A stretch of 64,000 bases of DNA from Amycolatopsis sp. NBC_01480 (lineage in GTDB: Bacteria > Actinomycetota > Actinomycetes > Mycobacteriales > Pseudonocardiaceae): contig NZ_CP109442.1 of the NCBI RefSeq assembly GCF_036227205.1, positions 5,208,001 through 5,272,000 on the forward strand, written 5' to 3'. The stretch's first letter is position 1, and every line of letters starts with the position of its first letter. A program made the translations under genes and the position numbers. Of this stretch, positions 41,645 through 44,459 are shown piece after piece. The notes under the pieces are model-generated. The model was not told the DNA's origin and ran no database searches. It saw only the letters and a list, made by a program, of their open reading frames with translations.

Positions 41645-42669
41645 TGGCCGCCTTCGCCACCGACGTCCAGCGGGTCACCGTGCTGGGGGCCGGCTCGTGG
41701 GGCACCGCGTTCGCGAAGGTGCTCGGCGACGCCGGCCGGGACGTGACCGTCTGGGCGCGCCGGGAGTCCGTCGCCGAGGAGATCCGCTCGGCGCACGCGA
41801 ACTCCTCGTACCTGCCCGGGGTCCGGCTGCCCGAGCGCATCACGGCGACGGCGGACGCCGCGGCGGCGCTGGACGGCGCCGAGGCCGTTGTGCTGGGCGT
41901 GCCGAGCCAGAGCCTGCGCGCGAACCTCACCGCGTGGCAGCCGCTGCTGCCGCGCGAGGCGATCCTGGTGAGCCTGGCCAAGGGCGTCGAACTGGGCACG
42001 CTGAAGCGGATGAGCGAGGTCATCGCCGAGCTGGCGCAGGTGCCCGCGGACGAGATCGTGGTGGTTTCGGGGCCGAACCTGGCGCGGGAGGTCGCCGCGT
42101 CCCAGCCGGCCGCGGCGGTGCTCGCGTGCGCCGACCACGAGCGCGCGATGGCGGTGCAGCGGGCCAGCTCCAACCAGTACTTCCGGCCGTACACCAACAC
42201 CGACGTGGTCGGCGCCGAGCTGTGCGGGGCGGGCAAGAACGTGATCGCGCTCAGCTGCGGCATGGCCGCGGGCATGGGCCTGGGCGCCAACACGATGGCG
42301 ACGCTGATCACCCGCGGGCTGGCGGAGATGGCGCGCCTCGGCGCGAAACTCGGCGCGGACCCGCTGACGTTCGCCGGCCTCGCCGGCCTCGGCGACCTGG
42401 TGGCGACCTGCTCGTCGCCGCTTTCGCGCAACCGCACGTTCGGCGAACGGCTGGGCCGGGGCGACACGCTGGAGCAGGCGCAGGCCGCGGCCGGCGGCCA
42501 GGTCGCCGAGGGCGTCGCGTCCTGCTCGTCTATCCGCGCGCTGGCCCAGGGACTGGGCGTCGACATGCCCATCACGGACGCGATGCACCGCGTCTGCCAC
42601 GAGGGCGTCGACCCCCGCCAGGCCGGCGCCGAGCTGCTGGGACGGTCGCAGAAACACGAGTGGAGCTGA
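41644..42669 (+). CDS. gpsA: Glycerol-3-phosphate dehydrogenase (NAD(P)+)
   Basis: 341 residues. Dinucleotide site [20 protein letters not shown] at the front; [20 protein letters not shown]; catalytic Lys in [15 protein letters not shown] (about residue 199); [19 protein letters not shown]. Reduces dihydroxyacetone phosphate for phospholipid synthesis. In mycobacteria ddl follows directly; here 12 kb of accessory genes intervene, starting with a palindrome interrupted by an IS110 element just behind the stop. Confidence 0.96.
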
Positions 42670-42672
42670 ACT

Positions 42673-42697
42673 GCTCGTGAGTGTTTATGCCGGTTAG
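42673..42697. repeat. Left half of the interrupted target palindrome
   Basis: Starts GCTCGTGAGTGTT and ends TATGCCGGTT plus AG (42696-42697). It is the reverse complement of 44279-44301 with 2 mismatches in 23. Located 3 bp after the gpsA stop; when intact it was probably the gpsA terminator. Confidence 0.8.
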
Positions 42698-42739
42698 TTG
42701 GGGTCGCCCTTGCGGGCGTGCCTTTGTGGGCTGAAAATT

Positions 42740-42860
42740 GTGGTTGGCTGCCTGTTGACGTCGTGGTTCTTTGGTTGTGGTGGAGGCCGTCGGTTAGTCG
42801 GGCGCTGGGAACTGCGTGGTGGGCCTTTGACTGTTGCTTCGAGCACGCGGATCAGATTCT
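42740..42860 (+). ncRNA. Candidate bridge RNA segment of the IS110 element
   Basis: In the non-coding end upstream of the transposase, GGTTCT (42765-42770) equals the minus-strand left target plus core (GGTT-CT), and CGGTTAG (42791-42797) is complementary to core plus right target (CT-AACCG). Wobble pairs extend them to about 8 and 9 nt. This is the left-guide then right-guide order of an IS621 target loop. GCCT..GAC (42750-42760) can pair with GTCGGGC (42797-42803) to close it. Weaker donor-loop candidates are AACT 42810-42813 and CGGATCAG 42848-42855 (7 of 8 against the right end). Transcript ends are not determined. Confidence 0.5.
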
Positions 42861-42927
42861 GTGTTTCCCTGGTGGTTCCCCGGGCAGCCGTTGGTTGTCC
42901 CGGGGACGCTGCTGGGAGGTGGGTGTG

Positions 42928-44196
42928 ATGCTGGCCGAGGCGCAGGATCATGAGGAGATCATCGAGCGGGTCGCGGCGATTGATGTGGGCAAGGCCGAGG
43001 TGATGTGTTGTGTGCGGGTGCCTGATCGGGTTCATCCGGGTCGGCGGTTGCAGGAGGTGCGGCCGTATTCGACGATGACGCGGTCGTTGCTGCTGCTCTC
43101 GGACCGGCTCGCGGAGCTGGGTGTCACCCGCGTGGTGATGGAGGCGACCTCGGATTACTGGAAGCCGGTGTTTTATCTGCTGGAGCGGCCGGGGCGGCAG
43201 GTGTGGCTGGTCAACGCCCGTGATGTGAAGCATCTGCCGGGGCGGCCCAAGACCGACCGGCTGGACGCGGTGTGGTTGTGCAAGGTCGCCGAGCGGCAGA
43301 TGCTGCGCCCGAGTTTCGTGCCTCCGCCCGAAGTTCGGCGGTTGCGGGACCTGACCCGCTATCGCTGTGATCTGGTCCGGGCCCGCACGAGTGAGAAGAA
43401 CCGGGTGGAGAAGCTGCTCGAAGACGCCTGCATCAAACTCTCGGTGGTCGCGTCGGATATTTTCGGGGTGTCCGGGCGGGCGATGATGGCGCAGCTGATT
43501 GACGGGCAACGCAACGCGCAGCAGTTGGCGCAGCTGGCGAAGGCGGGAATGCGCCGCAAGATCCCGGTCCTGGAGGAAGCGCTGACCGGCCGGTTCACCG
43601 ATCACCACGCGTTCCTGCTGGCGACGATGCTGCGCCGGATCGACGGCATCGACGCCGACCTCACGGCGGTGGAGACCGAGGTCGAGCAGGCGCTGGCCCC
43701 TTTCGCGGTGGCGGTGGCCCGGCTCGATGAGATCATCGGCGTGGGTGTCACCGCGGCCTCGGTGATCATCGCCGAGATCGGTGTGGACATGTCCCGGTTC
43801 CCCACCCCCGCGCACCTGAGCTCCTGGGCGAAGTTCGCGCCGGGAGTGTCGGAATCCGCGGGTCGGCGCAAGGGCCGCTCCGCGACCGGGCACGGCAACC
43901 GCTACCTCGCCTCGGTACTCGGGGAGATCGCTGTCGTCGTCGGCAGAACGGACACCTTCCTCGGAGAACGTTACCGGCGCATCGCGAGACGGCGGGGTAC
44001 CAACCGTGCGATCGTCGCGGTCGGGCGATCCATCCTGGTGATCGTCTGGCATCTGCTGTCCGACTCCGAGGCCCGCTACCGGGACCTCGGGGCGGAGTTC
44101 TACCAGCGGCAACGCGGCACCGAACGCCAGAAAGCCGGCCACATCCGCCAGCTCCAAGCACTCGGCTACCACGTCACCCTCGAACCCGTCGCCTGA
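42928..44196 (+). CDS. IS110-family transposase (DEDD recombinase)
   Basis: 422 residues. The N-terminal RuvC-like domain has D19 (AAIDVGKAEV), E72 (VMEATSDYWKPVFYLLE), D110 and D113 (GRPKTDRLDAVWL). A coiled-coil middle follows, then the C-terminal Tnp domain (IIGVGVTAASVIIAEIGVDM, FAPGVSESAGRRKGRS) with the conserved Ser region. Full length with no frameshift, so it may be active. Works with an RNA guide from its non-coding end in studied relatives. ATG 42928 follows GGGAGGTGGGTG; earlier in-frame codons lie in the presumed RNA region. Confidence 0.93.
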   Translation: MLAEAQDHEEIIERVAAIDVGKAEVMCCVRVPDRVHPGRRLQEVRPYSTMTRSLLLLSDRLAELGVTRVVMEATSDYWKPVFYLLERPGRQVWLVNARDVKHLPGRPKTDRLDAVWLCKVAERQMLRPSFVPPPEVRRLRDLTRYRCDLVRARTSEKNRVEKLLEDACIKLSVVASDIFGVSGRAMMAQLIDGQRNAQQLAQLAKAGMRRKIPVLEEALTGRFTDHHAFLLATMLRRIDGIDADLTAVETEVEQALAPFAVAVARLDEIIGVGVTAASVIIAEIGVDMSRFPTPAHLSSWAKFAPGVSESAGRRKGRSATGHGNRYLASVLGEIAVVVGRTDTFLGERYRRIARRRGTNRAIVAVGRSILVIVWHLLSDSEARYRDLGAEFYQRQRGTERQKAGHIRQLQALGYHVTLEPVA

Positions 44197-44276
44197 CCAC
44201 ACCGGCCAGCACACCCCACAACCCACCCGGCTCCGCCGGGCGCTGTCGCACGCCCGGTCACCATCATTTTCGGGTC

Positions 44277-44301
44277 AGAACCGTCATGAACACTCACGAG
44301 C
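44277..44301. repeat. Right half of the interrupted target palindrome
   Basis: AG (44277-44278), then AACCGTCATGAACACTCACG and AGC to 44301; the mate of 42673-42697. Confidence 0.8.
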
Positions 44302-44375
44302 GGGTTCCCGGGCGGGGCTGGTCCACGGGGTGGGACGGGTTGACCGGGGCCGGTGGCGCTGGTTCGCTGTACGGC

Positions 44376-44459
44376 ATGTCGATGTGCCTGATGACCGTGT
44401 GGCCGGGGTCCTGTGACCTCCGCCCCGTCATGGGCGCCTCGTGTCGCTGTTGTCGGTGA
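44376..44459 (+). CDS. Cysteine-rich upstream ORF (leader peptide)
   Basis: 27 codons from ATG 44376 to TGA 44457-44459, ending ASCRCCR; five Cys in total, three of them in the last five residues. Later ATGs at 44382 and 44391 are alternative starts. It ends 51 nt before a cysteine-dioxygenase-like gene, so it probably senses cysteinyl-tRNA supply and links it to cysteine breakdown. Polycysteine uORFs with such a role are known in mycobacteria. No clear ribosome site is seen; a leaderless start is possible. Confidence 0.55.
   Translation: MSMCLMTVWPGSCDLRPVMGASCRCCR

Follow-up and report, generated by a model that had tools for sequence, protein, structure and literature searches.

Predicted bridge RNA of an Amycolatopsis IS110-family element with target guides matching its own insertion site in apparently reversed polarity

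Does the left non-coding end (LE) of an IS110-family element in Amycolatopsis sp. NBC_01480 encode a bridge RNA, and would that RNA specify the very site in which the element lies? An earlier note on this DNA had proposed as much from two short words in the LE, GGTTCT and, 20 nt farther on, CGGTTAG. We followed this up in the window, by which we mean the whole 64,000-nt stretch analysed (NZ_CP109442.1, positions 5,208,001 to 5,272,000), and in related elements, and we now put the probability at roughly 0.93 that the two words belong to the target-binding loop of an IS110-group bridge RNA lying beside the target that it specifies. The features are collected in Table 1. The LE ends directly before the ATG of a gene whose product matches PF01548 (the DEDD domain; E 1.9e-27) and PF02371 (E 2.1e-14), both above the curated cut-offs, as well as the NCBIfam model NF033542, "IS110 family RNA-guided transposase" (E 3.7e-75). 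In an alignment of six proteins that includes IS621, to which it is 26% identical, residues D19, E72, D110, D113 and S310 are invariant. Judged by both domains, the DEDD residues and the catalytic serine, the protein is an IS110-family recombinase.

Table 1. Positions in the window of the element, its predicted RNA parts and its target
Feature	Position	Strand	Remarks
Left half of target palindrome (CTCGTGAGTG..CCGGTTAG)	42674..42697	+	last two bases are the core AG (CT on the minus strand)
IS110-family insertion sequence	42698..44278	+	1,581 bp
Left non-coding end (LE)	42698..42927	+	230 nt; source of the predicted bridge RNA
Region matched by the bridge-RNA covariance model built here	42705..42890	+	model includes the window sequence; predicted extent
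Closing stem, 5' strand	42746..42753	+	pairs with 42882-42889; 6/8 pairs with compensatory changes
5' target guide GGTTCT with core CT (LTG in IS621 nomenclature)	42765..42770	+	matches reverse complement of RE-adjacent flank
3' target guide CGGTTAG with core AG (RTG)	42791..42797	+	identical to LE-adjacent flank
Handshake-guide positions	42798..42799	+	covary with first two LE bases
3' donor guide GGATCAG with core AG (RDG)	42849..42855	+	matches RE end GGGTCAG; one mismatch in window copy
Closing stem, 3' strand	42882..42889	+	
DEDD/serine recombinase gene	42928..44196	+	422 aa; PF01548 and PF02371; NCBIfam NF033542
Right non-coding end (RE)	44197..44278	+	82 nt; last two bases are the core AG
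Donor half-site GGGTCAG in RE	44272-44278	+	
Right half of target palindrome (AACCG..CACTCACGAG)	44279..44300	+	

The 10.1-Mb genome holds four copies of the element, identical at 1,581 of 1,581 bases, and each lies at GGTTAG/AACC (the slash marks the insertion point), the centre of a 46-bp REP-like palindrome. In the window, the left flank ends in CCGGTTAG, the element ends in GGGTCAG, and AACCG follows. The four sites read CTCGTGAGTG..CGGTTAG/AACCG..CACTCACGAG, with arms that vary. The earlier note had named copies at sites unrelated to the guides as evidence that would count against its proposal; no such copy was found here, the sites of all four containing CCGGTTAGAACCG or ACGGTTAGAACCG. 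The palindrome centre, CGGTTCTAACCG, occurs 285 times in the genome on either strand, and the exact 10-bp ends CTCGTGAGTG and CACTCACGAG enclose a middle of 24 to 26 nt at 238 sites; a reversed-pattern control gave 0 in both searches. With up to three mismatches allowed, the inner palindrome pattern is found at 240 genomic sites. The guides would therefore read that part of the repeat which is least variable among the listed sites.

The palindrome also occurs without the element. Among 24 relatives examined at the same gpsA end, 2 (L165 and L173) have the palindrome unoccupied, with GGTTAGAACC; an unoccupied palindrome is seen at this place in relative G011. The closest relative by gpsA (L154, 99%) lacks a palindrome at its gpsA 3' end, so the palindrome is present or absent between species. 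This pattern suggests a REP-like repeat that is either mobile or readily lost. Insertion of IS110-family elements in REP palindromes was already known (PMC1525189).

We next turn to the guides themselves. GGTTCT and CGGTTAG are where the earlier note had placed them, each found once in the LE, and G-U pairs lengthen them to 8 and 9 nt against the window site by direct reading, as it had stated. That note had also doubted the orientation of the CT core, and with reason: CT is not on the transposase strand but on the opposite one. Because the arms of the window target are palindromic, the window copy alone cannot settle what this orientation means, and it was relatives with non-palindromic sites that settled it. 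Our genome scan lists 80 of the 265 loci that encode a relative. For the assignment of element ends, eight loci with a disrupted, cut or aberrant LE were set aside (L086, L091, L101, L110, L118, L119, L132 and L139), as was L044, the same element as L111; the elements at L042, L044 and L043, from three genomes of the same genus, look the same as those at L085, L111 and L112 (A. anabasis, A. vastitatis and Amycolatopsis sp.). Of the 80 loci then taken, eight had no recognizable RE, and 5 of the other 72 were dropped (L093, L117 and L141 as misplaced, L096 and L113 for having no right flank), which left 67 elements with 46 distinct guide sets. Because the search demanded AG as the core, elements with other cores are uncounted, and the related sequences in all of these counts are non-independent.

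Across the 46 guide sets, the LE-adjacent flank was identical to the 3' guide at 221 of 230 positions, compared with a mean of 76.0 (sd 7.7) and a highest value of 109 in 20,000 shuffles, a count that is inflated because the 3' guide was placed by best match with AG required. Two controls bear on this inflation. When placement was searched anew for every pair, own pairs agreed at 5/5 positions in 37 of 46 cases and crossed pairs in 10 of 2,044. In an alignment blind to the match, 37 of 48 rows had AG and its four preceding bases identical in 3' guide and LE-adjacent flank, the 11 inexact rows including disrupted or cut ends and single mismatches. The RE-adjacent flank agreed with the 5' guide at 117 of 230 positions (shuffled mean 60.9, sd 6.4, maximum of 20,000 shuffles 86). 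This signal was limited to positions -4 to -1 before the core (z 4.9, 5.3, 4.3 and 4.7) and was gone when the guide was shifted by five positions (63/230, mean 58.8). The guides of 46 distinct relatives thus change with their insertion sites, which supports the proposal of a target-binding loop beside its target.

We also scanned all columns of the inner RNA alignment against each flank and each element end, position by position. The strongest signals joined 42791-42795 to the LE-adjacent flank (43 to 45 of 46 agree), 42849-42853 to the RE end (44 to 45 of 46) and 42798-42799 to the first two LE bases (46 and 44 of 46); further signals were weaker or clearly artefacts, some of them hanging on one agreeing sequence. 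For the RE-adjacent flank nothing exceeded z 5, since the alignment does not hold the 5' guide, whose length varies, in register. At the handshake positions, the first base agrees in all 37 exact rows and the second in 35. The window copy is among the two exceptions: its handshake bases are TC against TT in the LE, so that the second is mismatched. Two further observations concern the core. The 5' target guide ends in GC, not CT, in 3 of the 46 guide sets (L092, L115 and L116). By eye, AA seems to be the core in both guides and at both ends of L139, from a Rokubacteria bin.

How the two guides are assigned to the two flanks was then compared with IS621. At three IS621 plasmid loci, the LE-adjacent flank ends in ATCAGGC-CT or, alternatively, ATCGGGT-CT; the LE carries ATCGGGC-CT as 5' guide, and its 3' guide reads the other flank's complement. 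This is also how Durrant et al. define the IS621 guides (PMC11208160). The window clade has the same 5'-CT and 3'-AG guides, yet here it is the 3' one that reads the flank beside the LE. The two words of the earlier note behave as the two target guides, with one refinement: the flank beside the non-coding end belongs to the 3' guide and not to the 5' one. The same order was seen by eye in L178 (52% protein identity), L179 (Paenibacillus, 41%) and L180 (a Mycobacterium avium plasmid, about 40%). Polarity was resolved in relatives down to about 40% protein identity, with L181, L182, L183 and L184 (30 to 33%) outside that range; the copies of L181, a Citrobacter element, gave no clean ends. On this evidence, the window element and its resolved relatives appear to have the reverse of the IS621 polarity.

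This reversal might be an illusion. Were the polarity that of IS621 and the core misassigned, the 5' guide would read the LE-adjacent flank and the palindrome would fake the reversal, for either assignment pairs the palindromic arms of the window site. Agreement between 5' guide and LE-adjacent flank is indeed slightly above chance (75/230, mean 63.3, with 787 of 20,000 shuffles as high); the other guide-flank pair of this assignment gave 63/230 (mean 56.8, with 3,596 of 20,000 as high). A free polarity search of 30 loci also left most of them undivided, with 16 versus 16 for the window. That search is noisy: of three IS621 loci, it ranked one (L148) correctly at the true site and favoured an IS621-like order at other sites in the remaining two, and it served here only as a pointer to L179. 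Against this stand the non-palindromic relatives, which give 221/230 and 117/230 for the reversed order versus 75 and 63 for the IS621-like one, so that the order of IS621 and ISEc21, with a 5' guide that reads the LE-adjacent flank, was not found. Moreover, an RNA with GGTTCT first and an element with AG at both ends cannot pair the core in the IS621 way. We regard the canonical polarity as close to refuted.

It is similarly improbable that the recombinase itself recognizes the palindrome and that the matches go back to earlier insertions or to an RNA with a purely regulatory role for the gene. What speaks for this is Kibdelosporangium, where one flank is weakly specified: across 14 copies, the 3' guide matches at 5/5 positions in 11 and at 4/5 in 3, and the 5' guide matches at only 1 to 3 of 5. 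Closely related proteins (68 to 74% identical) are nevertheless found at a wide variety of sites, and in each case the guide fits the site; experiments show that IS621, ISEc21 and IS1111 elements require the RNA (PMC11208160, PMC11187229). Three of the 14 Kibdelosporangium copies (L072, L074 and L082) lie in a related CTCGTGAGTG palindrome. Least probable of all is a chance likeness of two short words, for although GGTTCT alone is not rare in dinucleotide shuffles of the 230-nt LE (3,298 of 20,000; CGGTTAG in 64 of 20,000), both words in the right order with a gap of 5 to 60 nt arose in 4 of 20,000, as the earlier note had expected, and covariation in 46 guide sets refutes it.

The reading of the earlier note requires the two segments to lie in loops, and in the comparative structure they face each other between the closing stem and an apical stem. 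The fold predicted from 27 sequences is multibranched, with an outer (closing) stem, a stem that closes the target loop, the apical stem and a donor-loop stem. Overall, 82.9% of its cells are paired (shuffled 79.7) and 12 pairs show double changes (shuffled 5.5). The closing stem is paired in 99.1% of cells and the donor-loop stem in only 59.1%. The predicted energy is no better than that of shuffles (z 0.39), and RNAalifold on an automatic alignment gave weak structure. Of 32 IS110 loci outside its training set, the covariance model matched 27 at E<1e-4, some of them close to training sequences, and L179 and L050 at E about 0.01; three other IS110 loci and all three IS621 loci gave no match at E<=1. 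Good scores in the host genome were confined to the four copies. The LE gave no match to an Rfam family, and the four matches elsewhere in 42600-44400 stayed below the gathering score. As a separate observation, the stretches analysed around L134 and L127 (Mycobacterium) each contain a second match to the model.

In the donor loop, the 3' guide matches the RE clearly across relatives. A match of a 5' donor guide to the LE was found neither as a diagonal in a search of 41 of the 46 elements nor in the column scan. In L045, L121-L124, L127, L128 and L134, the donor guide has CG where the RE core has AG (for example, GAGTC-CG against GAGTC-AG), so that one core base would be unpaired in the donor loop. 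Elsewhere in the LE, all 27 aligned sequences share GAAAAT (42733-42738) immediately before the closing stem, and the IS621 LE has the similar GAAAATCGG; this may reflect a promoter, a protein contact or chance. Subterminal inverted repeats are not shared across the family, the longest inverted match between LE and RE averaging 5.35 nt for own and 5.38 nt for crossed ends in 46 elements. The window element alone has an exact 9-nt inverted repeat, CGGGCGTGC, at 42713-42721 and in the RE (1 of 500 shuffles had one as long).

By analogy with IS621 and ISEc21, the LE would be transcribed and its RNA bound by the recombinase, which has a DEDD RuvC-like and a serine domain. The 5' guide GGTTCT and the 3' guide CGGTTAG would pair with opposite strands of the host palindrome centre, CGGTT-CT-AACCG, both covering the core, and the donor loop would read the RE end (GGRTCAG) of a circular form of the element. 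Strand exchange at the 2-nt core would then place the element in the middle of the palindrome. Carrying the RNA and the first part of the transposase gene, the LE would thereby come to abut the half-site read by the 3' guide, opposite to IS621.

ISAar29, presumably from an Arthrobacter-type host, may be a member of the window clade. The reversed polarity was described nowhere in the open literature searched; the guides in Extended Data Fig. 10c of Durrant et al., which shows those of ISAar29 and five others, were outside that search (PMC11208160). The clade around the element is actinomycetotal, with relatives of about 40 to 50% identity in Firmicutes, Chloroflexi and a Rokubacteria bin. We think it likely that this clade represents a third arrangement of bridge systems, with an upstream RNA of the IS110 type, the guide polarity of IS1111, and the 3' guides of both loops as main determinants of specificity. 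According to a published rule with few tested elements behind it, the bottom-strand match comes first in IS110 and the top-strand match first in IS1111 (PMC11187229). A clade with IS110 layout and IS1111 order would break this link between layout and order. If the arrangement is real, evolution has turned the RNA-recombinase cassette round between its own half-sites, and where the RNA lies is a trait independent of the order of the guides. Guides read or programmed by the IS621 rule would have left and right swapped in such elements, and the clade would be natural material for learning which guide carries specificity.

Among known systems, ISPpu9, ISPpu10 and ISRm22 are taken here, partly by assumption, to belong to the IS110 family. 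These and others share insertion in an abundant extragenic palindrome (PMC1525189); the window palindrome differs in being actinomycete and in that its match to the guides has been read out. For seekRNA elements, Siddiquee et al. (PMC11187229) describe the complement of the top strand first with the RNA downstream in IS1111 elements, and the reverse order with the RNA upstream in ISEc21. The window element resembles the IS1111-group elements ISEc11, ISPa11 and ISKpn4 in having the top-strand complement 5' of the bottom-strand match, and differs from them in that its guides lie upstream of the transposase gene, its clade has no family-wide subterminal inverted repeat and its transposase is longer (422 versus about 340 aa). 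With ISEc21, of the IS110 family, it shares an upstream RNA region, a linear target and two short target matches, whereas the bottom-strand match is 5' and the top-strand match 3' in ISEc21, the reverse of the window element. The likeness to IS621 of E. coli (PMC11208160, PMC11208158) takes in the DEDD/serine recombinase, the RNA in the upstream non-coding end, a REP target, two target guides that end in CT and AG and both cover the core, a target loop that precedes the donor loop, and handshake bases 3' of the 3' target guide; Hiraizumi et al. place the handshake guides 3' of the core in that guide (PMC11208158). The IS621 guides are 8 to 9 nt on the 5' sides and 4 to 7 nt on the 3' sides (PMC11208160, PMC11208158), whereas the strongest guides in the window clade are the 3' ones. 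Finally, the LE abuts the 5'-guide half-site in IS621 and the 3'-guide half-site in the window element, whose RE is read by the 3' donor guide and whose CT lies opposite the transposase strand.
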